Shown here in pieces: positions 1,038 to 42,282 of a stretch of DNA of 64,000 nucleotides; within the stretch, counting starts at the first letter, position 1; each line of letters begins with the position of its first letter. Under the pieces are notes generated by a model. The model did no database searches, was not told the origin of the DNA, and saw nothing but the letters and a program-made list of their open reading frames with translations. Location: the NCBI RefSeq assembly GCF_016745395.1, contig NZ_JAERVJ010000009.1, positions 99,928 to 163,927 of the forward strand, written 5' to 3'. This stretch comes from Methylocystis sp. Sn-Cys (GTDB taxonomy: Bacteria > Pseudomonadota > Alphaproteobacteria > Rhizobiales > Beijerinckiaceae). The position numbers were made by a program, and so were the translations under genes.

Positions 1038-4000
1038 ATGGTCTCCCCCGCCCCAGGCAATCCTTCCCGAAAACAGGCAAAGAAACCTTTGGCTAAGAAC
1101 CAGAAGTGCTCGAAGCGTCGCCGCCTCGGTCCTGGCGCTTATTGTCTGGCCGCCTGCGCCGCAGGCGTCGCATGGCCGGCGTCCATGGCTCGCGCGCAAG
1201 TATTGAACCCGACGGTTCTCGCGCCTGCGGCAAAGCTGCCGCAGGAGCGCGAGCTGCAAACGGTGGCCTCGCATGGGCGCGCCGGCCTCCAAATGCCCAA
1301 GGCGGCGGACAAGAAATTCGTCACCGTGCGCGTCGTGACGATTGCAGGCGCGTTCCCCGAGCTTGCCGAGCAGAACGCCGCGCTCGTTCAGAAGCTCCAG
1401 GGCAAACGGCTGAGCCTCGCCGAAATTTATCAGGCGGCCGCCGAACTTCAGGCCGCCTATTCGAAGTCCTTTCCGCTTGCGACGCTTTCGGCGCCGCGCC
1501 CCGACTTCGCCGATGGCGTGGTAAAGCTCGACGTCACCGACGGCGTCATCGAGAAGCTCGAACTCTCCGCCGTTCCCGAACGCGCGCGCGAGCTTGTGCG
1601 CGCCCGGCTGCAACCGCTCGTCGGCCAGCGCCATCTGGCGGCCGCCGAGTATCAGCGACGCACCCTGCTCGTCGGCGCCATCGCCGGCGTCAGCGGCCAA
1701 GCCTCGACGACGCCGCTCGATTCCCGTGACGGCTATTCTCTGAATGTCGCGGTGGTAGAAAGCCGCGTCGCGGGCGCGAGCGCGATTACCAATCGGCTGC
1801 CGAAGGAATATGGGACGTGGGAGTTTGCGCAGACCTTCGCGCTGAACAACGCCCTGGGGTTGGGCGAACAAATCGCTGGCGCGGTTTCGTCGACGCCGGA
1901 TTTCGAGCGCTATTTCAGCGGAACCTCAAAAAGCGAAGCTTATAGCACCGATGTTTTTGTGCCCATCGGGGCCGACGGCCTGGTTTTCGGCGCCGGCTAT
2001 CTCATGGCGCGATCCCGCCCGTCTCCCTATTTCTCCACGCTTCCAGACGAGCTTCTCTTTGCGGGGGAGCGCGTCACGGGAAGATTCGACCGCGTCTATG
2101 CCCGCGTCGCCTATCCGCTTTTCCTCACAACCGACCTCACCCTGCGCATTCAGGCGGACGCCGAGCACATCAACAACCGCTACCGTTACCGCCCCCTGCC
2201 GCTCGGCTTCATTCAACCGGCCTGGGCGCCTTTCCCGTCTCCGATCCAGGATGTTTTCCGAGACCGCTACAATGTCCTGAGGCTGTCCGCGGACGTCAAA
2301 TACCGCATCCCCTGGCTGGAGAACGCGACCTTTGCGGGTCTTATCGCTTATGGGCGGGGCCTTGGCGGCCGTTTGGACAGCACGGACTTCGCCTTTGGCC
2401 CGCCGCTGTCGCGCCTTGGCGCGAGCCCCAGTTTCGACCGGCTCAATCTGAAAGGCCGCCTCGACGTCGGCCTGCCGGAAAACTTCATCTTCTCCGCGAT
2501 CGGCCGCCTGCAAACGAGCTTCGGCAAGCCGCTCATGATCCCGGAAAACTTTTTGCTCGACGGCCCGGAAGCGGTGTCGGGCTATGCGTCGGGCACGCTC
2601 AACGTCGACCGCGGCGTCACAGCCCGCGCCGAGCTGTCACGGCCGGTCAATCTCGCGCTGCTCGGCTATAATCATTTGGTGTCGCCTTACGTGTTCGGCG
2701 CCTGGGGCAGCGGCGTGCGCGAAGAGCGCTCGCCGGGATTTTTCCGGCATATATGGGCCGAGACCTTCGGCGGCGGCGTGCGGACCGATACGAATTTCAC
2801 GGGCACGCCCTTCGGCGAGTCGCTCTCGATCGAGGTCGGTCGCGATTTGTCGAACATTCCGTTTCGCAACAGCGGCTATCGCACCAATGTGACTTACAAT
2901 ATGCGCTTCGCGGGCGACCCCTTCGCGCCCGAGGCGACGCCGGCCGCGCCAAGCGGCATTTTCAAAAAGGGCCCGCCGGATGAAAAGCCCGCCTCCCCTT
3001 TATGGGAGGGCTTCTACGCAGGTTTGAACGCCGGCTACACTTGGGATCCGAGGCCCGAGATCGCGACGGCCGGCGTGCCGCTCTGGACGGGCATCGACAC
3101 GTTTTTTACGGGGCTCGTTCCCCATTGGCTCGCGTCGGCGAATGGTCTGAGAGGCCGAGCGATCGAAGCCGGCGGCGGTTTCGCCGGCGGCGCCCAGACC
3201 GGCTACAATTTGCAATTCGGCAAGGTCGTCGCCGGCCTGGAGACCGACATTCAGGGGTCAAACGCACGAACCCGGCATGCGCTCACAAATGGCGGGGCTT
3301 CGTTTTTCGAGGTCGACGTCCAAAACCGGCTGTTCGCGGTCGAGCCTTTAGCGACAAGCATCGACCACACGAAGAACGTCGACTGGCTCGGAACGACGCG
3401 CGCGCGGCTCGGCTATCTCGTTACGCCGAGGTTTCTGGCCTATGCAACGGGCGGCGTGGCTTACGGCGAGGCGCGCGCGAGCACCTTCGTTCGTCAGAAT
3501 TGGGCGCCCTTCGCGCCACTCGGCCCGTTTCTGCAATCCGCCGGCGCGACCGGCGGCTACTCCGGCTTCAGAGTCGGATGGACGATCGGCGCCGGTCTCG
3601 AATGGATGTTTGCGCCCAATCTCAGCGTGAAGGCGGAGTACCTTCATTATGATCTTGGAAGCGTCAACTACGCGCTCTCTCCTCTTGTCACCACCCTTAC
3701 CCTGACCGGCGACACAAACGTCATCCTGCCTGGCGCGCACACGCAATTCCGTGGCGACGTCGTGCGCGTGGGTCTCAATTATTTCTTCGGACGGCCGGCA
3801 GGCGAATCTCCGGCGCAGGCGCCGGCGGCCTTCGCGCAAGGCTTCTATGCCGGCCTCAACGCCGGTTACGGCTGGGACGCGTCCCCGTCGGTCGCGCTGG
3901 CCGCGGGACCAATCCAGGCCGACATCGACCGAGCCGTTGCCGGCAATCTCGCCGGCTCCATGGCCGCAAGCGCGACAGGCGTCTCGAGCGCTTCCGCCAA

Positions 4001-4616
4001 TGGCGCGCTGGGCGGCGGCCAAGCTGGCTATAATTGGTTGATCGGCAATTATGTCCTCGGCGTCGAAGCGGATTTGCAGGGGGCGAGCCAAAAAGGCCGC
4101 GGCGGCTTCATTGGTTTCGCGCCAAACTCTGTCGCCGGCGTCCCCTCCGGGGCCTCCAGCACGGCGGTTCACAGCGAGAAAACGCTCGACTGGTTCGGCA
4201 CGCTACGGATGCGCGGCGGTTTCCTGGTCACGCCGTCCCTGCTCGCCTATGGAACCGGCGGCTTCGCCTATGGCGGCGCCACGGTTCAGAACTTGACGGC
4301 GCATCAAACCGACTCGACGCTTCTTTTCCTTCAGTCGACGGGTTCCGTTGGCAGTTATTCGGCCGGCCGGATTGGATGGACTCTCGGCGGCGGCATCGAA
4401 TGGAAATTCGCTCCCGACATAAGCCTGAAGGCGGAGTATCTGCACTATGATCTTGGCCGCGCGCAATATGGCGCCGGCGTGATCGCAACCGAGTTCCTCG
4501 GCCGCACCAATAAAGCCGCCCTAACAGCCAGCACGCGGTTCAGCGGAGACATTGCGCGCCTGGGACTGAATTACCACTTCGATCCCATTGCGGTCCTACC
4601 GGCCCTCACCCGGTAG
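1038..4616 (+). CDS. TpsB/FhaC-type outer membrane transporter fused to two Omp25-like barrels
   Basis: A 1192-residue outer membrane protein with three parts. Residues about 30-55 are a long, Arg-preceded signal peptide. Residues about 95-175 look like a POTRA domain and about 175-630 like a ShlB/FhaC (two-partner secretion) barrel; the conserved loop-6 tetrad, usually VRGY/F, reads VSGY at 513-516. After a Pro/Lys linker, residues about 655-925 and 930-1192 are two successive Omp25/31-type barrels, each beginning with the GFYAGLNAGY motif and carrying a GTTRARLGYLVTP or related strand. TpsB proteins normally have about 550-600 residues, so the C-terminal half is extra. A partner TpsA substrate with a TPS domain is not visible nearby. 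Start is the first ATG before the signal sequence. Confidence 0.8.
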   Translation: MVSPAPGNPSRKQAKKPLAKNQKCSKRRRLGPGAYCLAACAAGVAWPASMARAQVLNPTVLAPAAKLPQERELQTVASHGRAGLQMPKAADKKFVTVRVVTIAGAFPELAEQNAALVQKLQGKRLSLAEIYQAAAELQAAYSKSFPLATLSAPRPDFADGVVKLDVTDGVIEKLELSAVPERARELVRARLQPLVGQRHLAAAEYQRRTLLVGAIAGVSGQASTTPLDSRDGYSLNVAVVESRVAGASAITNRLPKEYGTWEFAQTFALNNALGLGEQIAGAVSSTPDFERYFSGTSKSEAYSTDVFVPIGADGLVFGAGYLMARSRPSPYFSTLPDELLFAGERVTGRFDRVYARVAYPLFLTTDLTLRIQADAEHINNRYRYRPLPLGFIQPAWAPFPSPIQDVFRDRYNVLRLSADVKYRIPWLENATFAGLIAYGRGLGGRLDSTDFAFGPPLSRLGASPSFDRLNLKGRLDVGLPENFIFSAIGRLQTSFGKPLMIPENFLLDGPEAVSGYASGTLNVDRGVTARAELSRPVNLALLGYNHLVSPYVFGAWGSGVREERSPGFFRHIWAETFGGGVRTDTNFTGTPFGESLSIEVGRDLSNIPFRNSGYRTNVTYNMRFAGDPFAPEATPAAPSGIFKKGPPDEKPASPLWEGFYAGLNAGYTWDPRPEIATAGVPLWTGIDTFFTGLVPHWLASANGLRGRAIEAGGGFAGGAQTGYNLQFGKVVAGLETDIQGSNARTRHALTNGGASFFEVDVQNRLFAVEPLATSIDHTKNVDWLGTTRARLGYLVTPRFLAYATGGVAYGEARASTFVRQNWAPFAPLGPFLQSAGATGGYSGFRVGWTIGAGLEWMFAPNLSVKAEYLHYDLGSVNYALSPLVTTLTLTGDTNVILPGAHTQFRGDVVRVGLNYFFGRPAGESPAQAPAAFAQGFYAGLNAGYGWDASPSVALAAGPIQADIDRAVAGNLAGSMAASATGVSSASANGALGGGQAGYNWLIGNYVLGVEADLQGASQKGRGGFIGFAPNSVAGVPSGASSTAVHSEKTLDWFGTLRMRGGFLVTPSLLAYGTGGFAYGGATVQNLTAHQTDSTLLFLQSTGSVGSYSAGRIGWTLGGGIEWKFAPDISLKAEYLHYDLGRAQYGAGVIATEFLGRTNKAALTASTRFSGDIARLGLNYHFDPIAVLPALTR

Positions 4617-8278: not shown

Positions 8279-9421
8279 TCACGGCTCGACAAAGAACGAC
8301 GGCGGCGCCTCTCCGCGCGCGATCAGCTCCAGCAGCCTGTCGCTGGCGGCCAGAGCTTCCTCGATCGTCACATCCATATCCAAATATCGATAGGTGCCGA
8401 GCCGCCCGACGAAACTCACCTTTTCGCTCGCGCGGGCGAGCTCGATGTAGCTGCGCAGCAGCTTCTGCTCATTGGCGAGCCGGATCGGATAATAAGGTAT
8501 GTCATCCGCGCCGGCGGCCCGGCTATATTCCCGGTAGCAAAGGGTCAAATCGAATGTGTCTTTTTCCCAGGGCGCAAAATATTTGTGTTCGGTTATTCGC
8601 GTGAACGGCACGTCGGCGTCGCAGTAGTTAATAACCGCAGCGCCCTGGAAGTCGCCCTTGTCGATCATTCGTTCGAAGTCGAGCGTGCGGTAGCCGAGCC
8701 GGCCGAGCCGGAAACCGAAAAAGCGGTCGAGCGGCCCGCTATAGAAGACATGAGCGAAATTCTCGCTCAGCTCCTCGAAGCGGCAGTTCAACCGGACGTC
8801 GACATTCGGCGCGCGGAGAATGTTCTCGGCCATCGCCGTGTAGCCGTTGCTGGGAATGGCCTGATAATGATGCGCAAAGTAACTGTCGTTGTAATCGAAT
8901 CTCGCGGGCAGGCGCTTCAGCACGGACGCCGGGAGGTCCGTCGGGCTTATGCCCCATTGTTTCGACGTGTATCCTTTGAAAAAGGCCTCGTAGAGCTCCT
9001 CGCCCATCAAGGCGAGCGCCTGCTCCTCGAAATTTTGCGGCTCTTCGATCTTACGCGCTTTCGAGGCGATGAAAGCGCGCGCCTCGGCCGGCCCCATGCA
9101 TCGTTTGAAGAACTGATTGATCGTCATCAAGTTCAAAGGCAGCGAATAGACGCCCGACTTGGCGACGGCGACGACGCGATGGTTATAGGGCCTCATCTCC
9201 GCGAAGCGCGTGACGTAAGACCAGACCCGTTCGTTCGAGGTGTGAAAGATGTGAGGGCCATAAATATGAGTCATCACGCCCGTTTCAGGGTCACGGGCGC
9301 TGTGACAGTTGCCGCCAAGATGCGATCGCTCGTCGACGACCAGAACCTTGTGCCCCGCCTCGCCCAGGCTCCTGGCGATCACGGCGCCGCTCAAGCCCGC
9401 GCCAACCACGCAATATCTCAT
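8279..9421 (-). CDS. glf: UDP-galactopyranose mutase
   Basis: A 380-residue flavoenzyme interconverting UDP-galactopyranose and UDP-galactofuranose in the cytoplasm. The N-terminal FAD motif VVGAGLSGAVIA (about 4-15), the HLGGNCHS segment, THIYGPHIFHT, YTSKQWG and the RFDYNDSYF block are all typical of Glf. Length agrees with the family. It supplies galactofuranose for surface glycans. It lies on the opposite strand just upstream of the giant repeat protein and glycosyltransferase genes, which makes a link to that glycosylation block possible but unproven. Confidence 0.93.
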   Translation of the reverse strand: MRYCVVGAGLSGAVIARSLGEAGHKVLVVDERSHLGGNCHSARDPETGVMTHIYGPHIFHTSNERVWSYVTRFAEMRPYNHRVVAVAKSGVYSLPLNLMTINQFFKRCMGPAEARAFIASKARKIEEPQNFEEQALALMGEELYEAFFKGYTSKQWGISPTDLPASVLKRLPARFDYNDSYFAHHYQAIPSNGYTAMAENILRAPNVDVRLNCRFEELSENFAHVFYSGPLDRFFGFRLGRLGYRTLDFERMIDKGDFQGAAVINYCDADVPFTRITEHKYFAPWEKDTFDLTLCYREYSRAAGADDIPYYPIRLANEQKLLRSYIELARASEKVSFVGRLGTYRYLDMDVTIEEALAASDRLLELIARGEAPPSFFVEP

Positions 9422-9840: not shown

Positions 9841-12800
9841 ATGACCTCCATCATTTCTTCGCTCACCCCCAGCCAAGTCGCCTCGCTCTCGACGAGCACG
9901 ATCTCAAAGCTCACGACCGACGATATAGCGGCTATGACGACCGCTCAGGCGGCGGCACTGACGTCGAGTCAGATCCGCGCCCTGAATACGGATGACGTCG
10001 CGGCGTTTTCGGCGACGCAGATGAGCGCCCTTAGCTGGAGCGCCATCCTCGGCTTCACGAGCACGCAGATCACCGCGATTACCAGCACCGACCTCACGTC
10101 GCTGTCCACAGGTCAGGTCGCCGCTTTCACCACGAGCCAGCTACACGCGCTCTCGACCGACCAGATCGCGTCTCTCTCGACAGCGCAAATCGCGGTTTTC
10201 GTTTCCGCCCAAGCCAATGCGCTGACCACTGACAGCGTCGCTGCGCTCGCCACCGACCAAATCGCGGCGATGAAGACCAATGCGGTCGCAGGATTGAGCT
10301 CCGCACAGATACAGGCGCTCTCCTCGGTGCAGATCGGCGCTCTCACAACCGCCCAGATCTCGGCGATGACCTCCTCCCAGGCGGCCGCCTTGTCGTCGGA
10401 TGACGTCGCCGCTCTTTCCGCAAGCCAATTCAGCGCCTTCGGCGCCCGCGACCTCGCCGCGCTGACCACCAGCGCCCTCGCCGGCGTCTCGACCTTGGAC
10501 ATCGCCGCGCTGAACACGTCGCAGGCGGCCGCGCTCACGAGCGCGCAGATGCACGCGCTTTCGACGGACCAGGCCGCCGCCTTGACCACGGCGCAAATCG
10601 CCGTCCTCGGCTCCAGCCAGATTGCGGCGCTGACCACCGACGCCGTCGCCGCTCTGTCCACGGATCAGATCGCGGCGTTGAAAACGAGTTCTTTTGCAGC
10701 GCTGGGTTCCGCGCAAATTCAGGCCCTCTCGACCAACCAGGCCGCCGCCCTGACCACGGCGCAGGTCGCGGCGCTGACGACCGCCCAAACGGCCGCGCTC
10801 ACCTCCGACGACGTCGCGGCCTTCTCCACCGCGCAGTTCGGCGCCCTCTCGGCCCGCGACATCGCCGCTTTGTCCACGAGCGCCCTCGCCGCGGCCTCCA
10901 CTGCCGATATTGCGGCGCTGAGCACCGCTCAGGCCGCCGCCCTGACCACCGCTGAAATCAGCGCCCTCTCCACCGATCAGGCGGCCGCTCTCACCACCGC
11001 CGCCGTCGCCGCGCTAGGCTCCGGCCAGGCCGCCGCGCTGACGACGGACGCGGTCGCCGCGCTCTCCACCGATCAGGTTGCGGCGCTCAAGACCCTCGCC
11101 GTCGCGGCGCTGACCACCGCGCAGATCGGCGTCCTCTCGGCCGGTCAGACAATCTCGCTGACCACCGCGCAGGTTGCCGCGCTGAAGACCACGCAGATCC
11201 AAGCGCTTTCGGCGATCCGGGTCGCCACCCTGACCACCGAGCAGGTGGCCGCGCTCGGCTCCACCCAGGCCGCCGCGCTGACCACCGACGAAATTGCCGC
11301 GCTCTCGACAGACCAGGTCGCGGCGCTCAAGACCAGCGCCATCGCCGCGCTGAGCACGGCGCAAATCGACACATTGTCGACCAGCCAGGCCGCCGCCCTC
11401 GGCACTGCCCAGATTGTCGCGCTCACCACCGCGCAGGCGGCGCGCCTGAGTTCGGACGACATCGCGGCGCTCTCGACGGCGCAGCTTGCGGCTTTCGAAA
11501 CGCGCGACCTCGCGGCTTTGTCCTCGAGCGCCTTCGCCGGCGTCTCGACGGCGGACATCGCCGCTCTCAGCACGGCGCAGGTCGCCGCTTTGACGACCGC
11601 CGAGATGCGCGCGCTGTCGACCGATCAGGCCGCGGCGCTCACCACGGCGCAAGTGGCGGTCCTCGGCTCCCGTCAGGCGGCCGCGCTCACCACGGATAGC
11701 GTCGCAGCGCTCTCCACGGATCAGGTCGCGGCGTTGAAATCCAGCTCTGTCGCCGCCTTGAGCACGGCGCAAATCGTTACGCTGACGACCGCTCAGGCGG
11801 CGGCGCTGACCACCGCTCAAGTGGCGTCGCTGACCACCGCGCAAGCGGCGGCCCTTTCCTCCGACGATCTGGCCGCCTTCTCGACCGACCAATTCGCGGC
11901 GCTGAGCTCTCGCGATCTGGCGGCGCTCACCTCCACCGCCCTTACCGGCGTGTCGACGGCTGAGATCGCCGCGCTGAGCACCGGGCAGATCGCGGCGTTC
12001 ACGGCCGTGCAGATGCGCAGCTTGTCGACCGATCAGACCGCCGCTCTGACGACCGCCCAAGTGGCCGTCCTCAGCTCCGGCCAGGCCGCCGCCTTGACGA
12101 CCGATAGCATCGCAGCCCTCACCACCGACCAGATCGCCAGCCTGAGGACGTCCACTGTCGCGGCGCTCGGCAGCGCGCAGGTCCACGTCCTGACGACGGC
12201 TCAGGCGAGCGCGCTGACCACCGCCCAGATTGGCGCCCTGACAACGGCGCAGACGGCCGCGCTGACGACCGACGACATCGCCGCCTTCACCTCGACGCAG
12301 TTCGACGCCCTCAGCTCCCGCGACCTCGCGGCGCTGCAAACGAGCCAGTTGGCGGCGGTCGCGACCGAGGATCTCGCGGGGCTGTCCACCTCGCAGGTCG
12401 CCGCCCTGACGACCAGGCAGCTCCATGCGCTCTCGTCCGATCAGTCCTCCGCTCTGACGACCGCTCAGATCGCCACGCTGTCGTCCGGGCAGGTGGCCGC
12501 GCTCACGACCGACAGCCTCGCCGCTCTCTCCACGGATCAGATCGCGGCGCTCCGGTCGGCCGCCATCGCGGCGCTGAGCACGGCGCAGATCGACGTGCTC
12601 TCGACCGCCCAGGTTGGCGCGCTGACGACCAGCCAGATCGCCGCCCTGACGACGACGCAAAGCGCGACGCTCTCCTCGGACGACGTGGCCGCCTTCACCA
12701 CGGCGCAGTTTGGCGCGCTCGAGGCGCGTGACCTTGCCGCGATGTCGACGAGCGCGCTCGCCGGAGTGTCGACGGACGACGTCGCCATCCTGAGCGCCGC

Positions 12801-15609
12801 GCAGGCCGGCGCGCTGACGAGCGCGCAAGTTCGCGCGCTGTCGACGGACCAGGCGGCCGCGTTGACGACCGGTTCGGTCGCGGTCCTGGGCTCGGCTCAA
12901 GCCGCCGCGCTCACCACCGACAGCGTCGCGGCGCTGTCGACGAATCAGCTCTCCGCCTTCAAGACGAGCGCGGTCGCCGCTTTGACCACCGCGCAGGTCC
13001 AGTCCTTGTCGACGGCTCAGGCCGCGGCGCTGACCACGGCCCAGGTCGTCGCCCTGACCACCACGCAGACGCGCGCTCTGTCGACGGATCAGGCGGCGGC
13101 GCTGACAACCGATCAGGTGGCCGCTTTGAGCTCCCGGCAGTCGGCCGCTCTCACGACGGACAGCGTTGCGGCGCTTTCCACCGATCAGGTTGCGGCGCTC
13201 AAGACCAGCGCAGTCGCCGCGCTGAGCACAGCGCAGATCCACGCGCTCTCCACGGCGCAGATCGCGGCGCTCACGACCGCGCAGATCGGCGCCCTGACGA
13301 CGTCTGGGGCCTCGGCGCTGTCGTCCGACGACATCGCCGCCCTCTCGACGGCGCAGTTCGCGACGCTGAGCACCCGCGACATCGCCGCCTTGACGACCGC
13401 CGCTCTCCTCGGCGCCTCGACCGACGACCTCGCCGCGCTCAGCACGGGCCAGTCCTCGGCCCTGACGTCGAACCAGGTGCACGCGCTGTCGACCGACCAG
13501 GCCGCGGCGCTGACGACGGCGCAGGTCGCCGTCCTCAGCTCGGGCCAGGCGGCCGCGCTCACCACGGACAGCGTCGCGGCGCTCTCCACGGATCAGATCG
13601 CGGCGCTTTCGACCAGGGCTGTCGCGGCCCTCGGCACAGCGCAGATCAGCGCTCTGTCGACGGCTCAGGTGGCGGCCTTCGCCACCGCCCAGATCGCCGC
13701 TTTGACCTCGGCGCAAGCCGGCGCTCTCTCCTCCGATGATGTGGCGGCCTTCTCGACCGCCCAATTCGCGGCCTTGAGCACGCGCGATATCGCAGCCCTG
13801 TCGACGAGCGCCATCGCCGGCGCCTCGACGGACGACATCGCAGCTCTGAGCACGGCCCAGGCGGCCGCCCTCACCACCGGCCAGGCGCATGCTTTGTCCA
13901 GCGCTCAGACAGCCGCGCTGACGACGGCGCAGGCCGCCGTTCTCAGCTCGGCCCAGGCGGCGGCGCTGACGACCGATAGCGTCGCGGCTCTGACGACGGA
14001 CCAGGTGGCGGCTTTGAGATCGGCCGCCATCGCAGCCCTGAGCACCGCTCAAATCGGCATCCTGTCGACCGATCAGACGGCCGCTCTCACCACGGCGCAG
14101 ATCGTGGCGCTGACCAGCTCGCAGACGCATGCGCTCTCGACCGACCAGGCCAAGGCGCTGACGACGGAGCAAGTCGGCGCGCTTTCCTCGCGCCAGGCGG
14201 CGGCGCTGACCACCGACAGCGTGGCCGCGCTTTCCACCAGCCAGGTTGCGGCGCTCAAGACCGGGTCGCTCGCGACCCTGAGCGCGGCGCAGATACGCGC
14301 CCTGTCGACCGATCAGGCGGCGGCGCTGACCACGGACCAGATTGTCGCTTTGACCACGGCGCAGACCGCCGCGCTCTCCTCGGACGACGTGGCCGCGCTC
14401 TCCACCGCGCAGTTCGGCGCGCTGGAAACCCGGGATATCGCCGCCCTGTCGACGGCGGCGATCGCCGGCGCCTCGACGACCGATATTGCGGCCTTGAGCA
14501 CCGCCCAGGCGGCGGCGCTGACGGCGGCTCAGGTCCATGTCTTGTCGACCGATCAGGTGGCCGCCTTGACGACGGCGCAGGTCGCGACGCTCGGCTCGGC
14601 TCAGGCGCACGGGCTGACGACGGACAATGTGGCGGCGCTCTCCACGGATCAGGTCGCTGCGCTCTCGACCGGCGCCTTGGCCGCGTTGAGCAGCGCCCAG
14701 ATCGCCGCCCTCTCCTCGGCTCAGGCGGGGGCGCTGACCACGGCGCAGATCGCGGTTCTGTCCACCACGCAGGCGGCGGCTCTGTCGTCCGACGACGTGG
14801 CGGCCTTCACCACTGATCAGTTCGCGGCGCTCAGCCCCCGGGACATCGCCGCGCTGTCCACCGCCGCCATCGCGGCCGCTTCGACCGCCGATATCGTGGC
14901 GCTCAGCACGGCTCAGGTCGCGGCTCTGACAGCGAACCAGCTCCCAGCGTTGTCGACCGATCAGGTGGCGGCGATGACCACGGCGCAGGCCGCGGTGCTC
15001 CAGGCGTCGGCCTTGACCACCGCCGGCGTGGCGGCCATGTCGACCGACCAGGTGGCGGCGCTCAGGACCAACGTGGTCGCCGCCTTCAGCACCGCGCAGA
15101 TCAGCGTCCTGACCACGGCCCAGGCCGCCGCGCTCACCACCGCGCAGGTGACGGCCCTGACGTCGAGCCAGGTCGCCGCTCTCACGACGGACGATATCGC
15201 AGCTTTCAGCGCCACGCAGTTCGACGCGTTGGACGCCCGCGACATCGCCTCGCTGCTCACGACCCAGATTGCCGTCGTCTCGACTGCAGACATTGCGGGC
15301 CTGTCGACGGCGCAGCTCTCGGCAATGACCACCGCGCAGTTGCAGGCGTTGTCGACGGATCAGACTGTGTCGATCACCACCGCCCAGATCGGCGCGCTCA
15401 GTTCCACGCAGATCGGGGCGCTCGAGAGCGCGGACTTCACGGCCTTCTCGACCGATCAACTGGTCGCGATCTCCACGCAGTCCATCGCCGGCTTGTCGAC
15501 CGACGACATCGGGGCCCTGAGCACCACGCAAGCCAGCGCGCTGACCACCACGCAGATCAATGCGATGTCGTCTGCGCAGGTCAACCGGCTGATGCAACTG
15601 TTCCAGTAA
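9841..15609 (+). CDS. Giant Ser/Thr-rich octapeptide-repeat protein
   Basis: A 1922-residue protein that is in 8-residue register from residue 1 to the end: 239 octads of consensus (S/T)(S/T)x(Q/D)(V/I/A)xA(L/F), one octad shortened to QASAL (residues 1721-1725), and a tail MQLFQ. Six introductory octads precede 12 higher-order modules, each opening with an (S/T/N)(S/T)DD octad. Nine modules have 17 octads and three have 27. There is no signal peptide, no transmembrane segment and no Cys that I can see. Each octad begins with two hydroxy residues, giving several hundred possible O-glycosylation sites, and a GT41-type transferase is encoded next. Each octad fits a capping box (T-x-x-Q) plus a short helix, so an alpha-solenoid is possible, but fold and function are unknown. 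Secretion route is also unknown. Confidence 0.85.
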   Translation: MTSIISSLTPSQVASLSTSTISKLTTDDIAAMTTAQAAALTSSQIRALNTDDVAAFSATQMSALSWSAILGFTSTQITAITSTDLTSLSTGQVAAFTTSQLHALSTDQIASLSTAQIAVFVSAQANALTTDSVAALATDQIAAMKTNAVAGLSSAQIQALSSVQIGALTTAQISAMTSSQAAALSSDDVAALSASQFSAFGARDLAALTTSALAGVSTLDIAALNTSQAAALTSAQMHALSTDQAAALTTAQIAVLGSSQIAALTTDAVAALSTDQIAALKTSSFAALGSAQIQALSTNQAAALTTAQVAALTTAQTAALTSDDVAAFSTAQFGALSARDIAALSTSALAAASTADIAALSTAQAAALTTAEISALSTDQAAALTTAAVAALGSGQAAALTTDAVAALSTDQVAALKTLAVAALTTAQIGVLSAGQTISLTTAQVAALKTTQIQALSAIRVATLTTEQVAALGSTQAAALTTDEIAALSTDQVAALKTSAIAALSTAQIDTLSTSQAAALGTAQIVALTTAQAARLSSDDIAALSTAQLAAFETRDLAALSSSAFAGVSTADIAALSTAQVAALTTAEMRALSTDQAAALTTAQVAVLGSRQAAALTTDSVAALSTDQVAALKSSSVAALSTAQIVTLTTAQAAALTTAQVASLTTAQAAALSSDDLAAFSTDQFAALSSRDLAALTSTALTGVSTAEIAALSTGQIAAFTAVQMRSLSTDQTAALTTAQVAVLSSGQAAALTTDSIAALTTDQIASLRTSTVAALGSAQVHVLTTAQASALTTAQIGALTTAQTAALTTDDIAAFTSTQFDALSSRDLAALQTSQLAAVATEDLAGLSTSQVAALTTRQLHALSSDQSSALTTAQIATLSSGQVAALTTDSLAALSTDQIAALRSAAIAALSTAQIDVLSTAQVGALTTSQIAALTTTQSATLSSDDVAAFTTAQFGALEARDLAAMSTSALAGVSTDDVAILSAAQAGALTSAQVRALSTDQAAALTTGSVAVLGSAQAAALTTDSVAALSTNQLSAFKTSAVAALTTAQVQSLSTAQAAALTTAQVVALTTTQTRALSTDQAAALTTDQVAALSSRQSAALTTDSVAALSTDQVAALKTSAVAALSTAQIHALSTAQIAALTTAQIGALTTSGASALSSDDIAALSTAQFATLSTRDIAALTTAALLGASTDDLAALSTGQSSALTSNQVHALSTDQAAALTTAQVAVLSSGQAAALTTDSVAALSTDQIAALSTRAVAALGTAQISALSTAQVAAFATAQIAALTSAQAGALSSDDVAAFSTAQFAALSTRDIAALSTSAIAGASTDDIAALSTAQAAALTTGQAHALSSAQTAALTTAQAAVLSSAQAAALTTDSVAALTTDQVAALRSAAIAALSTAQIGILSTDQTAALTTAQIVALTSSQTHALSTDQAKALTTEQVGALSSRQAAALTTDSVAALSTSQVAALKTGSLATLSAAQIRALSTDQAAALTTDQIVALTTAQTAALSSDDVAALSTAQFGALETRDIAALSTAAIAGASTTDIAALSTAQAAALTAAQVHVLSTDQVAALTTAQVATLGSAQAHGLTTDNVAALSTDQVAALSTGALAALSSAQIAALSSAQAGALTTAQIAVLSTTQAAALSSDDVAAFTTDQFAALSPRDIAALSTAAIAAASTADIVALSTAQVAALTANQLPALSTDQVAAMTTAQAAVLQASALTTAGVAAMSTDQVAALRTNVVAAFSTAQISVLTTAQAAALTTAQVTALTSSQVAALTTDDIAAFSATQFDALDARDIASLLTTQIAVVSTADIAGLSTAQLSAMTTAQLQALSTDQTVSITTAQIGALSSTQIGALESADFTAFSTDQLVAISTQSIAGLSTDDIGALSTTQASALTTTQINAMSSAQVNRLMQLFQ
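9985..15591 (+). repeat. Tandem array of 408- and 648-bp coding modules
   Basis: Module starts, each at the (S/T/N)(S/T)DD octad: 9985, 10393, 10801, 11449, 11857, 12265, 12673, 13321, 13729, 14377, 14785 and 15184. Modules are 408 bp (17 octads) except those starting at 10801, 12673 and 13729, which are 648 bp (27 octads), and the one at 14785, which is 399 bp because of a 9-bp loss at 15001-15015. In the long modules octads 7-16 are present twice (10945-11184 and 11185-11424; 12817-13056 and 13057-13296; 13873-14112 and 14113-14352). Repeats have diverged in sequence but keep length and order. Confidence 0.9.
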
Positions 15610-15636
15610 GCGCGACACACTGGAACAGCCACAATT

Positions 15637-15675
15637 GCCGCCGAGGGTGCGTAAGCCTCCTCGGCGGCTGCTTTT
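15637..15675 (+). terminator. Rho-independent terminator after the repeat gene
   Basis: Ten-base stem GCCGCCGAGG (15637-15646) and CCTCGGCGGC (15659-15668) followed by TGCTTTT. It would end transcription of the giant repeat gene before the GT41 gene at 15796, so the two may be separate units or partly read through. Confidence 0.65.
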
Positions 15676-15795
15676 GAAGCTCGAGCAAATTCGGCCGCAA
15701 TCGCCCTCCCGAGCGGCTGCACATGCCTGGCGCAAGCTCTCTTTGCCAAGGTCCGTTGGGATTGCCCTCAATGTTCCCAACTGGACTGCCAACGC

Positions 15796-17832
15796 ATGCT
15801 GACGCCGGCCTCCCCCTTGGCGAGCGGGATCGAAATTTTCAACCTCGCCGTTCATCGCGCCAAGCGCCGAAACCTGCCGCTCGTCGAACTTTTCGACAGC
15901 GCCGATAAATTGCGACGCGCGGGCCAGCCGGCGTTGGCCAGCGAGCTTTACAAGACATGGATCGCCTTCAACGGCGAACATGAGCTGCTCCACATGGCCT
16001 ATTTCAACTATGCGGTCGGCCTGCGGGAACAGGGCGACATTTCCGGCGCCGCCATCGCTTTGCGGGAGTGCCTTCGGGTCAAGCCGGATTTCGCCCAGGC
16101 GCATATCAATCTCGGCCGCGCATTCGAAGATGCGGGAGACATCGGCGCGGCGGTTCAGCAATGGCGCGCTCTGAGCGAAAAGCTCGCCGAGGTGAACGGC
16201 GAGACGATGGCGCATAAAGTTCTCGCCTTGCACCAAATCGGCCGCGTCCTCGAAGGCGTCGAGGATTTACAGGGCGCCGAGGAGGCCCTGAAGCAGGCGC
16301 TCGAACTGCGGCCCGACAAAACCGAAGCCGCGCAACATTGGATTTCGCTGCGCCAGCGCCAGTGCAAATGGCCGGCCGTCGCCGCCGCCGAGCGCCTGCC
16401 GCGCCGCAACCTCATCGACGGCATGTCGTCGATGTCGCTCGCCGCCTATGCCGACGATCCCATGTTCCAGCTCGCCAAGGCGTATCGCTACAATAAGTCC
16501 GTCGTCGGTCGTCCGGCGAGCGCGCCGCTCGCGCCGCGCGAGAGAAAGCCACGCGCGCCGAACGCGCGCCTGCGGATCGGCTATGTCTCCTCCGATCTGC
16601 GCGAACATGCCGTCGGCTTTGCGCTCGTCGAAGTCCTGGAAGGGCACGATAAAGCCCGTTTCGAGATCTTTGCTTATTACTGCGGCGAGGATCGCCCCAC
16701 CGACGAAACGCAATCGCGCATAAAGGCCGCCGTCGATCACTGGATCGACATCAAACCGATGGACGACGCCCAGGCGGCGATGCGGATCGCCGATGACGAG
16801 ATCGACATTCTCGTCGATCTCAACGGCTACACCAAACATGCGCGCACGCGGATTTTCGCCTATCGCCCCGCGCCGGTCATCGTGAACTGGTGCGGCTACC
16901 CCGGAACGATGGGCAGCCCCTATCATCATTACATGATCGCCGATCCGGTGATCGTGCCGGAAGAAAACAAGATCTTCTACTCCGAGAAGGTCCTGTGGAT
17001 CGGCTGCAATCAGCCGCTCGACCGCAAGCGCCGCATCGCCGAGCGCCGTCCGACGCGCGAAGAGGCCGGACTCCCCAATGACGCCTTCGTCTTCGCCTGC
17101 CTCAATGGCATGCAGAAGATCACGGCGAATACTTTCGCCTTGTGGATGTCGATCCTGAAGGCGACGCCTAACAGCGTCCTGTGGCTTTTGACGGGCGGAG
17201 CCGACGTCAATGAGCGTTTACGCAAAGCCGCCGCGGAACATGGCGTGGCGTCGGAACGCATTCTCTTTGCCGAGAAAGCGCCGAACCCGCTTCATCTGGC
17301 GCGCATCCCGCTCGCAGATCTTTTCCTCGATACTCTGCCCTATGGCGCCCATTCGACCGCCGCCGACGCGCTCACGATGGGCCTGCCGGTCCTGACGTTG
17401 CGTGGCCGCAGCTTCGCGGCCCGCTTCTGCGCAAGCGTTGTCACGGCCGCCGGGCTGGACGATTTCATCTGCGCCACGCCCGAGGAATTTTTCGCGCGCG
17501 CGACGGAGTTCGCGCGCAACCCCGCCGGGCTGGCGGCGCGTCGCAAGGCGCTTGTCGAAAACCGGGATCGCAGCGCCTTGCGGGACATTGAAGGAACCGT
17601 GCGGCGGCTCGAATCGGTCTTCGCCGAAATGCACGAGGATTTTGTCGAGGGACGCACGCCGACGCCCGATTTGACCAATCTCGACGTCTATTACGAGATC
17701 GGCTGCGAACTCGATCTCGAATCCATCGAAACGCTGGGCGAAGACGCCTATCGCGCGCTGTATCGAGATAAGCTGAAGGAATGGAGCGAGCATATGCCCA
17801 TTCCGCAAGACCGCCGGCTGGCGGATTTTTAA
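15796..17832 (+). CDS. TPR / O-GlcNAc transferase-like (GT41) glycosyltransferase
   Basis: A 678-residue protein with tetratricopeptide repeats at about residues 35-190 and a C-terminal GT41 domain at about 258-660. Hallmarks of the OGT/SPINDLY catalytic region are seen: RIGYVSSDLREHAVG with candidate catalytic-site His271, the FACLNGMQKIT segment with Lys441, and the nucleotide-sugar loop LDTLPYGAHSTAADAL at 511-526. GT41 enzymes transfer a sugar, usually from UDP-GlcNAc or UDP-Glc, to Ser/Thr or Asn of proteins in the cytoplasm. Its position directly after a Ser/Thr-rich giant protein points to that protein as substrate, which is inference. Donor sugar cannot be told from sequence. Confidence 0.85.
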   Translation: MLTPASPLASGIEIFNLAVHRAKRRNLPLVELFDSADKLRRAGQPALASELYKTWIAFNGEHELLHMAYFNYAVGLREQGDISGAAIALRECLRVKPDFAQAHINLGRAFEDAGDIGAAVQQWRALSEKLAEVNGETMAHKVLALHQIGRVLEGVEDLQGAEEALKQALELRPDKTEAAQHWISLRQRQCKWPAVAAAERLPRRNLIDGMSSMSLAAYADDPMFQLAKAYRYNKSVVGRPASAPLAPRERKPRAPNARLRIGYVSSDLREHAVGFALVEVLEGHDKARFEIFAYYCGEDRPTDETQSRIKAAVDHWIDIKPMDDAQAAMRIADDEIDILVDLNGYTKHARTRIFAYRPAPVIVNWCGYPGTMGSPYHHYMIADPVIVPEENKIFYSEKVLWIGCNQPLDRKRRIAERRPTREEAGLPNDAFVFACLNGMQKITANTFALWMSILKATPNSVLWLLTGGADVNERLRKAAAEHGVASERILFAEKAPNPLHLARIPLADLFLDTLPYGAHSTAADALTMGLPVLTLRGRSFAARFCASVVTAAGLDDFICATPEEFFARATEFARNPAGLAARRKALVENRDRSALRDIEGTVRRLESVFAEMHEDFVEGRTPTPDLTNLDVYYEIGCELDLESIETLGEDAYRALYRDKLKEWSEHMPIPQDRRLADF

Positions 17833-17857: not shown

Positions 17858-19204
17858 ATGGAAAAGCAGAAGACGATTCTGGTCACTTTCGCGGGAAGAA
17901 AGGATCGGATGAGCCTGCTGACGCGTTACGTCGACGCCGCGATCGAGCGCGGGCTGATCGACGAGTGGCATGTCTGGGACTTCACCCGCAACGCCGCCGA
18001 CGCGCGCTGGCTCCGCGAGCGCTTCCCCATCGCGCAAGTCACGCCGAGCCATACGGACGAATATTTCCTTCTGCCCGGAACGCTCTCGGTGCGGGGAAAC
18101 AATCGCAGCGTCAAATTCAGCGTTCGCGCCACAAATGACGTGCACATCGGATTGCGCCGTCGCGGCGCTTCGGGAACGAGCTATGAGATTGTCATCGGCG
18201 GATGGAACAATCGCGCAAGCGCCATTCGGCGCTTTGCGAATCCACTCGCGCTGACAGCCACACAATTGAGAAATCACGAGGAGCCGCCCGCCGTTTACGC
18301 CTCCACGCCCCAGATTCTCCCCGAGTTCGATTTTGTGGATGTCGAAATCCGTTTCGGCGCCGATGGCCTGAGAATATCCGTCGCCGGCGACGACATCCTC
18401 CGTGACGACCTGCCTGTCGCCGACGGCGAGTTCGAAGCCCTGTACCGAACCGGATTTGGCGCCAATGGCGACTGGCGTTTCGAGTGTTTCAATTTGCACG
18501 CGGCGCGTCTGTTCGTCGGCGGAAGGGCGCCTTTTTATTCGAAGGACGTGATGTTCTACACGACGGCCTATCAATATTACGCCGCCAATCGCGACCTCCA
18601 TGCGCGAGACGTCTTTCTCAAATGCGACGACGACATCGTCTATGTCGATCTCGACCGGCTCGGCGATTTCATCGATTTCCGCCGCGCCAATGACGATTAT
18701 TTCCTGATCAGCGCGAATGTCGTGAACAATGGCGTCTGCGCCCATTTCCAGCAGCAGTTCGGCGCGATCCCGCACAACGAGATGGCGCTCGAGCTTCCGC
18801 CCGGCGGGATGTGCGGATCGCTCTGGAGCAGCGGCGCCAAGGCGGAAGCGCTTCACCGGCTCTTTCTGCGCGCGCCGTCGCGCTTCACGCTCGAAGAGCC
18901 GACCGCTCTCGCGTGGAACGAAAGGGTCAGCATCAATTTCGTCGCTTTCCTCGGCCGCGATCTCGTGCATATCCCCGACATCATGTCCGACGACGAGCAT
19001 GACCTCTGCTATGGCGTGCGCAAGCGCGCCCGCAAGGAGAACAGCGTCTATTTTCCCTTCGTCGTCTCTCACTTGTCATTCTGGCGCCAGGACGCGGAAA
19101 TGAATGTCGCTGGCCTGGTGTCGGCTTACGAAAGACTCGCCGATCAAAGCCTGAGGCGCACGATCGCGGCGCCACGATCTCAGGCGGCGAAGAGCGCGGC
19201 GTAA
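17858..19204 (+). CDS. Glycosyltransferase-like protein with inserted FAMeT-type domain
   Basis: A 448-residue protein starting 26 bp after the GT41 gene, so probably in one operon. The N-terminus (ILVTFAGRKDRM, then VDAAIERGLIDEWHVWDF) and the segment KCDDDIVYVDLDRL (about 250-263) look like a nucleotide-sugar fold with an acidic metal-binding DxD-type motif. Between them, about residues 75-225, lies a different domain with HIGLRRRG, YEIVIGGWNNRAS and a C-terminal WRFECFNL strand, which resembles the farnesoic-acid O-methyltransferase-type (FAMeT) carbohydrate- or ligand-binding domain. Likely role: sugar transfer linked to the neighbouring repeat protein. The family call is tentative. Confidence 0.65.
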   Translation: MEKQKTILVTFAGRKDRMSLLTRYVDAAIERGLIDEWHVWDFTRNAADARWLRERFPIAQVTPSHTDEYFLLPGTLSVRGNNRSVKFSVRATNDVHIGLRRRGASGTSYEIVIGGWNNRASAIRRFANPLALTATQLRNHEEPPAVYASTPQILPEFDFVDVEIRFGADGLRISVAGDDILRDDLPVADGEFEALYRTGFGANGDWRFECFNLHAARLFVGGRAPFYSKDVMFYTTAYQYYAANRDLHARDVFLKCDDDIVYVDLDRLGDFIDFRRANDDYFLISANVVNNGVCAHFQQQFGAIPHNEMALELPPGGMCGSLWSSGAKAEALHRLFLRAPSRFTLEEPTALAWNERVSINFVAFLGRDLVHIPDIMSDDEHDLCYGVRKRARKENSVYFPFVVSHLSFWRQDAEMNVAGLVSAYERLADQSLRRTIAAPRSQAAKSAA

Positions 19205-19929: not shown

Positions 19930-20703
19930 ATGAGCACCATCAACACGCACGCCGCAGGCGCCGCAGAGCGCGCCGAGCGGATCGTCGATACGAAGCCGCT
20001 TCTTTTCGGCGTTCTGGCTCTGACCCTTTTCGTCGCCGCGTTGCGCCTCTTCGAACAGGCTTTCGGCTGGACCGTCGGACTGGATTCATTCGCTCCAGAA
20101 TTCGAGCTTTACTGGATCAATCTCCTCAAGGCCGCCGTCGTCCTCTCTATCGCCAGCGTCGCGCTCCTCGCGGGCTTGCTATGGCGCACGCGCGATCGCG
20201 AGCTCGAGAAGCTCTCGCCCGCGCGCGAAACGCGGCGGCTTCTTTATCTCGTGCAATGGCTGGTCGTCTTTGCGCTAGCTCTGTTTTGGGGCCTGAGCTT
20301 CTTCTCCGAGCAGACTGCCGTCTGGCACATGACAGCGGTCCGCGACACGGATTTCACCCCGAGCAATATCATCACCTTCTATATTTCATATCCGCTGTTC
20401 TCGATCATCGGGGTCGGCGCGTTCTTTTACGCGAAGACGCGCCTACCCTTTTTTGCCCAGGGCTACTCGCTCGCCTTCCTCGTGCTGGTTGGCGGGGTCT
20501 TCATGACGATCCCGAACGTCGGGTTCAATGAATGGGGCCACACCTCCTGGGCGATGGACGAGGGATTCGCGGGCCCTCTGCATTGGGGCTTCGTCTTTTT
20601 CGGGTGGATGTCGCTCGCCGTCTTCGGCGTGACTCTGCAGATCCTCGGACGGCTCCGTCAGCTCCTCGGAAATGAGGGTGTCGACGCTCTGCTCCGGCGC
20701 TGA
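19930..20703 (+). CDS. pmoC: Orphan PmoC/AmoC-type monooxygenase subunit C paralogue
   Basis: A 257-residue polytopic membrane protein colinear with PmoC of alphaproteobacterial methanotrophs: FGWTVGLDSFAPEF, the WHMTAVRDTDFTPS block, GAFFYAKTRLPFFAQGYSL, and NEWGHTSWAMDE followed by PLHWGFVFFGW. No pmoA or pmoB is adjacent. The copper-site pattern D-x3-H-x12-H expected in helix 4/5 reads T129, H133 and N146, so two of three ligands are lost. The second site, N200, H204 and H218, is intact. A GGAG ribosome binding site precedes ATG 19930. It may be a structural or regulatory paralogue, or an enzyme using only the second site; the sequence alone cannot decide. Family membership itself is clear. 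Confidence 0.9.
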   Translation: MSTINTHAAGAAERAERIVDTKPLLFGVLALTLFVAALRLFEQAFGWTVGLDSFAPEFELYWINLLKAAVVLSIASVALLAGLLWRTRDRELEKLSPARETRRLLYLVQWLVVFALALFWGLSFFSEQTAVWHMTAVRDTDFTPSNIITFYISYPLFSIIGVGAFFYAKTRLPFFAQGYSLAFLVLVGGVFMTIPNVGFNEWGHTSWAMDEGFAGPLHWGFVFFGWMSLAVFGVTLQILGRLRQLLGNEGVDALLRR

Positions 20704-42193: not shown

Positions 42194-42282
42194 CCCCACC
42201 CCTCGTCCTTTAATTGTCCCCTGCCCGCGCCGCATCGTCGCTAGCATTTCCGATTCCAATTCAAACCCAGCCAGCCCTACCT

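Follow-up and report, generated by a model that had tools for sequence, protein, structure and literature searches.

We analyzed a stretch of 64,000 nucleotides (the window, W) on contig NZ_JAERVJ010000009.1 of Methylocystis sp. Sn-Cys, in which a giant gene on the forward strand (9841..15609) encodes an octapeptide-repeat protein and is followed on the same strand by a gene for a putative glycosyltransferase of family GT41 (15796..17832). The frame of the giant is open throughout, and residue identity along its 1922 amino acids is 0.423 at a lag of 8 and 0.467 at a lag of 16, compared with 0.059-0.161 at lags of 1-7. The two-level repeat design described in a first-pass annotation of this DNA is thus real. 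That annotation had counted 239 octapeptides in a single strict register; the number of units was right (238 octads plus one 5-residue unit), while strictness over the whole chain was not. An 8-residue head is followed by 214 octads (residues 9-1720), the unit QASAL (residues 1721-1725; 15001..15015, +), 24 octads (1726-1917) and a 5-residue tail, and QASAL marks the only break of the register, a slip of 3.

Above the octads stand 12 modules (9985..15609, +), whose starts and lengths agree with those proposed at first pass. The modules begin at octads 6, 23, 40, 67, 84, 101, 118, 145, 162, 189, 206 and 223 and comprise, in order, 17, 17, 27, 17, 17, 17, 27, 17, 27, 17, 17 and 17 octads, the eleventh being short by 3 residues; the three modules of 27 octads, as opposed to the nine of 17, lie at 10801..11448, 12673..13320 and 13729..14376 (all +). 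Their reported opening with (S/T)(S/T)DD holds in general, except that module 1 starts with NTDD and that TTDD or STDD is not confined to module starts but turns up within modules and in the lead-in too. As had also been claimed, the DNA is diverged: over their first 17 octads, ten modules agree on average in 66% of residues and 68% of bases, and identical residues are encoded by identical codons in 50% of cases versus 45% expected from codon usage alone. Such near-random codon choice, together with the 68% DNA identity, indicates that the modules are old and not fresh copies. The protein has 0 Cys and 115 D/E versus 40 K/R, ends in ...AQVNRLMQLFQ, and shows no signal peptide apparent by eye (MTSIISSLTPSQVASLS...; no predictor applied), as noted before. 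Antisense to the array runs a 1740-residue open frame (11014-16236, -), which is probably a shadow of the GC-rich repeat codons.

The repeat had at first been left without a match to any described family. By hmmscan, the giant belongs to Pfam family PF20080, ALTTAQ_rpt (1228.6 bits against a curated cut-off of 26.4), with 74 stretches passing singly. A match to a well-studied family of known fold and function had been named as the result that would speak against the first-pass view, and the match to PF20080 does so only half-way: the family is curated, but its Pfam text consists of "ALTTAQ repeat", and in the open-access PMC literature, which gives weak evidence of absence, we found neither a published fold or function nor any study of this family. 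What the present analysis adds to the family is the 7/10/17-octad order and the link to GT41. The whole protein also scored 39.1 with Sigma70_r4_2 (cut-off 25.7), yet no stretch passed singly, and we read this and other short Pfam matches as helix-capping look-alikes.

Relatives of the giant occur sparsely. Genomes are denoted here by G and a number, and fetched ALTTAQ loci by L and a number (L037 is from G443, L038 from G444, L043 from G449, and L045 and L046 from G451 and G452). ALTTAQ was detected in 9 of 60 genomes of the window's family (E 1e-3; two of these, G029 and G030, by a single match), in 6 of 385 genomes of its class (E 1e-6), the window genome being included in both sets, and in 17 of 145 genomes sampled from the family of Duganella sp. 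BJB480 (G446; E 1e-10). The 60-genome sample also held the two remaining genomes from the genus of the window, and these had neither an ALTTAQ nor a GT41 match. A collection of genome contigs yielded 12 ALTTAQ loci, from Rubrivivax, Duganella, Sinorhizobium, Rhizobium, Aquabacterium, Noviherbaspirillum, Ideonella, Methylomonas and Marinimicrobia, and 54 plasmid records carried the repeat; phage records gave no tblastn match. Some genomes have two giant ALTTAQ genes in a row (L048 1923-10613 with L047 13205-20000; also L123).

Structure prediction of two to three modules had been suggested with the first description. We modelled three 17-octad modules (residues 537-944; 11449..12672, +) with AlphaFold, using 65 aligned segments of 135 candidates, and obtained a pLDDT of 97.2 and a pTM of 0.85. 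The model contains 51 helices in 51 octads, each of 4-6 residues, so that with the alignment each octad is predicted with high confidence to form one short helix. The best PDB sequence match by far was 9zem_A, HeliScrew4 (E 3.3e-30 with a profile, 6.9e-17 with the single protein), which has octads resembling LTPEQIAA. A tightly wound alpha-helical screw, called new, is described among random-sequence repeats on the basis of circular dichroism and crystallography (PMC12822642), and HeliScrew4 is, to judge by its name, apparently that design. It is a chain of 120 residues that we read as coming from random-repeat design, whereas the window giant has 1922 residues, is rich in Ser and Thr, and has phased surface octads and partner genes. 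In a Foldseek search with the model, 9zem was absent among the best 50 of 310 PDB matches, and mesothelin chains were matched with probabilities of 0.89-1.00 and TM-scores of only 0.16-0.44. In mesothelin, 24 short helices arranged in nine layers form a compact right-handed solenoid (PMC10035497); the protein is similar in being a solenoid of short helices, but its repeats are irregular and it is not among the sequence matches listed. In the viral fold library BFVD, proteins of uncultured Caudovirales matched the model (E down to 8.1e-6, probability 1.00, TM-scores at most 0.2), one with 40% identity over 97 columns, and phages may carry short octad screws.

The gene 186 bp downstream of the giant carries most of the functional information at the locus and was absent from the first-pass annotation. 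It encodes a 678-residue, OGT/SPINDLY-like protein with TPRs and a Glyco_transf_41 domain (240.9 bits), whose top solved relatives are O-GlcNAc transferase (OGT) and XcOGT; the alignment keeps the residues at His498 and Lys842, which we take to be the catalytic positions of human OGT. On the strength of its Pfam and PDB matches and of its recurrence beside ALTTAQ genes, we propose that it may be the O-glycosyltransferase of the giant. When 346 open reading frames (ORFs) around ALTTAQ in the window and L035-L060 were compared all-against-all, GT41 formed the commonest cluster, with 12 loci including the window (the L046 member turned out to be a TPR protein with a methyltransferase). Other clusters were smaller, namely ABC transporters of mixed kinds (7 loci), UDP-galactopyranose mutase (GLF; 3 loci) and one more (3 loci), and were set aside as candidates for a second recurrent neighbour.

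The linkage is seen both in gene content and in gene position. With GT41 counted as present at E 1e-20, it occurred in 8/9 genomes with ALTTAQ versus 15/51 without it in the window's family (Fisher P-value 0.0013), and in 17/17 versus 57/128 in the family of G446 (P-value 3.9e-6). Among the matches listed and the fetched loci, GT41 lay within 10 kb of ALTTAQ in 8/14 alphaproteobacterial genomes (0.35 expected) and in 9/17 genomes of the G446 family (0.32 expected), and within 20 kb in 12/17 of the latter (0.55 expected); none of 200,000 simulations reached the observed counts. The ALTTAQ matches of G029, G050, G471, G516, G538, G571 and L039 are on short contigs or contig ends. GT41 adjoins ALTTAQ in 5 of the 12 genome-contig loci, L039 being on a contig too short to judge and two of these genomes being also among the 17, and all 12 genomes carry some GT41. 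On plasmids, GT41 stood beside ALTTAQ in 8 of the 10 loci examined (10 of 20 listed, of the 54 records), the exceptions being L137 and L141; among the ten, L132/L140 and L136/L139 are near-copies of each other's gene order. With the longest ORFs taken, same-strand gaps between the two genes are 43-186 bp in W, L036, L040, L044, L050, L123, L129 and L131 and 636 bp in L048, and the genes overlap by 4 bp in L052; divergent pairs are 359-497 bp apart (L041, L054, L130), L037 has GT41 at 1.4 kb with GLF between, and in L123 the GT41 gene lies between two ALTTAQ genes. Each of the two Marinimicrobia metagenome-assembled genomes, G451 and G452, gave 48 Glyco_transf_41 matches (often two per gene), versus 2-10 in the other ten genomes of the genome-contig set.

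It is conceivable, if unlikely, that GT41 serves another target such as flagellin, that ALTTAQ is an unglycosylated structural fibre, and that the linkage reflects a shared island for surface polysaccharide or motility; among the alternatives we give this one the most serious weight. The modular enzyme FlmG, which has an N-terminal substrate-binding part, glycosylates the flagellins of Caulobacter (PMC7591256), and flagellar genes lie near ALTTAQ in L134, as does an FlgK gene in L043, but a scan of 29 ORFs of the window brought no flagellar structural gene to light. The many ALTTAQ-less genomes with GT41 (57/128 in the G446 family) do indicate that GT41 has other targets too. At the same time, in G028, G443 (L037), G520, G532 and G573 GT41 was found at a single locus, beside ALTTAQ (though the single locus is elsewhere in G444, G449 and G453), and same-strand gaps down to a 4-bp overlap, together with the arrangement in L123, point to a dedicated pair.

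Repeat spacing gave a further clue to the design of these proteins. Most relatives match themselves best at lags of 7, 10, 17, 24, 27, 34, 41 or 44 octads, with exceptions to lags of the 7/10 type that include L041, L043, L044 and L045. We subjected the longest in-phase run of each array, of at least 34 octads, to Fourier analysis (30 arrays from 22 genomes; 23 arrays in an earlier run), with 100 octad shuffles as a null that ignores kinship among arrays; arrays whose in-phase run is below 34 octads, including that of L044 and one from L041, fall outside this set. A peak at 3.28-3.53 octads was the strongest in 24/30 arrays and among the top three in 30/30, and was reached by at most 5 of 100 shuffles in 26/30. 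The residues that carry this peak vary between arrays (3D, 7G, 4Q, 2T and others); in the window giant, Asp at octad position 3 is the main one. From the computed period, one turn of the screw would take about 3.4 octads, or 27 residues. At that value 7, 10, 17 and 27 octads would be near whole turns (17 making five, 10 about three and 7 about two), which would explain the recurring lags of 7, 10, 17, 24, 27, 34 and 44 octads, and the likely cause of the 17- and 27-octad modules is that they keep features on one face. Of the selection on length and phase proposed at first pass, the case for phase therefore gains support, and the lengths, recurring as they do, are not arbitrary.

An unlikely alternative is that modules record duplication history only and that the 3.4-octad signal, as the echo of a copied ancestral block, has no structural meaning. 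It would account for most arrays having sums of 7 and 10 as their best lags, an outcome expected of recombination among octads that resemble each other, and L043, L049 and L128, which have little superperiod, fail to beat their shuffles; moreover, the arrays share ancestry and hence are not independent tests. An echo is harder to reconcile with L042, L045, L052 and L056, which have hardly any superperiod and nevertheless show the 3.4 peak first, above at least 97 of 100 shuffles, or with peak-carrying residues that differ between arrays, as expected for a facing constraint and not for one inherited motif.

Type I export of some ALTTAQ members is well supported, seven loci carrying type I secretion genes (L044, G233, G328, L132, L133, L135 and L140). 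In Methylomonas (L044), genes for the outer-membrane component OEP, HlyD and a PrtD-type ABC transporter (741.5 bits, cut-off 510.15) are divergent from an ALTTAQ gene whose product ends in RTX repeats, and two GT41 genes then follow. G233 and G328 have two GT41 genes, HlyD and a HlyB-like ABC transporter upstream of their ALTTAQ genes, and the ALTTAQ proteins, which have no RTX repeats, end in octads (...AQINALFM, ...AQVNSLFL), like that of the window. The Cereibacter loci L132 and L140 and the Pseudomonas loci L133 and L135 are annotated with a type I ABC transporter and HlyD beside ALTTAQ and GT41, the latter two also with TolC. In Cereibacter sphaeroides MBTLJ-20, whose record gives 2.4.1 as its source, the GT41 gene is A3857_RS21140 and the ABC gene A3857_RS21135, beside the ALTTAQ gene A3857_RS23950. 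For the window giant itself, we only infer type I export by analogy with these loci. Two-partner export of the HMW1A type through a TpsB-like protein encoded at 1038-4616 was considered and rejected: the giant has no TPS domain by Pfam and no apparent signal, and its octads start at residue 9.

We think it quite unlikely that the protein is a cytoplasmic scaffold or spacer, modified by GT41 much as proteins are by eukaryotic OGT, with only RTX-tailed versions or those with type I neighbours being exported. The window giant, without apparent signal peptide, RTX repeats or adjoining type I genes, could be such a protein, as could the many alphaproteobacterial versions with all-octad C-termini, and type I genes are missing from most loci examined. 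However, the G233 and G328 proteins end in octads without RTX and yet have a type I-like ABC transporter and HlyD directly upstream, and the zero cysteine content and strong acidity fit an exported protein. An ice-nucleation-type protein, as in the Cereibacter annotation and in plasmid relatives annotated as "ICE nucleation protein", is very improbable, because there is no Ice_nucleation Pfam match at E 0.01 and because the AlphaFold model is all helix, whereas a beta-solenoid has been modelled for the central domain of an ice-nucleation protein with repeats of 16 residues (PMC9418140). Some ALTTAQ proteins (L132 8392-13077, L140 8683-13368, L135 11935-15033) are misleadingly named in public records, as "ICE nucleation protein" or "heme utilization protein"; nothing was found in support of the heme-utilization label.

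Taken together, we read the window giant as a Ser/Thr-glycosylated, exported helical-screw fibre, with a probability of roughly 0.55; in this reading we infer that the chain is glycosylated and where, how the window giant is secreted and what role it has at the surface. The protein would be a very long, acidic, cysteine-free alpha-helical screw in which each octad forms a short helix capped by its own Ser/Thr. Every 7, 10 or 17 octads a residue would return to nearly the same face, and the 17- and 27-octad modules would reflect a constraint that holds surface features, chiefly position-3 Asp in the window giant, to fixed faces. The adjacent GT41 protein would act as a cytoplasmic O-glycosyltransferase, its TPR part recruiting the nascent chain and its catalytic part attaching sugars to Ser and Thr, and the modified chain would then exit by type I secretion and fold outside as a long fibre of the cell surface or matrix. 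More broadly, natural giant arrays of a fold reported in late 2025, tuned to about 3.4 octads per turn, could be dedicated substrates of many bacterial OGT-like GT41 enzymes and would then settle which proteins these enzymes act on, a generalization that we put forward tentatively and at somewhat less than even odds.

Several observations weigh against the glycosylated, exported fibre. As to the fold, AlphaFold run without an alignment on the C-terminal 338 residues, which include the register break, gave a pLDDT of only 66.2 with partly short and partly longer helices, and leucine-rich repeats also match (E down to 1.7e-12 with the profile, 0.0047 with the single protein), so that the E-values of such repeats are inflated. 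A folded screw may in addition hide its Ser/Thr, in which case modification would have to precede folding. As to the period, 4 of the 30 arrays (L043, L049, L054, L128) fail to beat their shuffles, the peak near 3.4 octads in the window giant ranks second behind one at 2.44 octads, and shared ancestry of the arrays weakens the 30/30 count as a test. As to the enzyme, GT41 is not near ALTTAQ in G042, G099, G199, G030, G453, L035, L038, L042, L043, L045, L046, L137 and L141; the only GT41 locus lies elsewhere in G444 (L038), G449 (L043) and G453; and G030 and G199 have ALTTAQ matches with no GT41 found. As to export, the neighbourhood of the window giant gene yielded no type I genes, a Pfam scan of the giant revealed no RTX repeats or secretion domain, and the LssB-type system of the window genome (847.7 bits, cut-off 693.1) is on another contig, beside an Ig-domain giant of its own. 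The ABC transporters of G233 and G328 score 605.8 bits, below the HlyB cut-off of 725.55, and no OEP was found at these loci. BLAST with the L044 genes detected HlyD in L044 alone among the window and L035-L060 and in none of L123 and L125-L131; HlyD is present in 4 of the 10 plasmid loci, and most ALTTAQ loci are without type I genes.

The proposed system has partial counterparts among known glycosylation systems. HMW1C is an enzyme that we take to belong to family GT41, which fits the literature listing. The cytoplasm is where it glycosylates HMW1, a giant surface protein of Haemophilus, and it is encoded in the same cluster (PMC3983070). The HMW1A/HMW1B/HMW1C system is thus similar in pairing a giant surface protein with a cytoplasmic enzyme of the same cluster, but it uses two-partner secretion, N-linked sugars and a signal sequence, whereas the ALTTAQ system lacks a TPS domain and has octads with Ser/Thr, a TPR-type GT41 and, in some relatives, type I genes; its linkage would differ from that made by HMW1C if the Ser/Thr octads are the target. 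FlmG of Caulobacter is likewise a cytoplasmic O-glycosyltransferase with a substrate-binding N-terminal part and a glycosyltransferase part; its substrate is flagellin, whereas the window GT41 adjoins a repeat giant. By analogy, the ALTTAQ system would work like HMW1C and FlmG but differ in substrate fold and secretion route.

The repeat, being a curated family, is ordinary; what is unusual is to find a natural screw fold together with a phase rule and a glycosyltransferase that looks dedicated. If our reading of the giant is true, a newly designed fold would have a natural counterpart across several phyla, and the rule of 3.4 octads per turn would explain the odd module lengths, and a single crystal structure could put it to the test. 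Candidate native substrates would become available for bacterial enzymes related to human O-GlcNAc transferase, Cereibacter sphaeroides being one laboratory host that carries such a locus; the known two-partner HMW1 design would be joined by a version modified by GT41 and exported by type I secretion; and the misleading annotations (ice nucleation, heme utilization) would be corrected.

Other genes around the giant may bear on the sugar. On the other strand, a GLF gene (8279..9421, -), identified by Pfam, is a possible sugar-donor gene, which is also found near ALTTAQ in L037, L048 and L138. Within the clade of the window GT41 (58-60% identity), GLF is close in 3 of 5 loci (window, L037 and L138; not L136 or L139), and the attached sugar could even be galactofuranose. 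Further sugar-nucleotide genes nearby are GDP-mannose dehydratase-like in L122, gmd in L133 and FdtA in L040. A gap of 25 bp separates the GT41 gene from the next gene, which encodes a Methyltransf_FA-domain protein (PF12248 by Pfam; 17858..19204, +); comparison with the other loci turned up no relative of this protein, and its part in the system is uncertain.

Three further genes of the window deserve mention. An AmoC/PmoC subunit gene (19930-20703, +) near the locus suggests a methanotroph or ammonia oxidiser; the scan, which covered 29 ORFs of the window, showed neither PmoA nor PmoB. The TpsB-like protein at 1038-4616 (+), with POTRA_2 and ShlB domains, carries two OMP_b-brl barrel stretches, and an alginate-export-type porin (39704-42259, -) is fused to an OMP_b-brl barrel, both of these being unusual fusions. 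The small barrels of the two proteins share about 37% identity.

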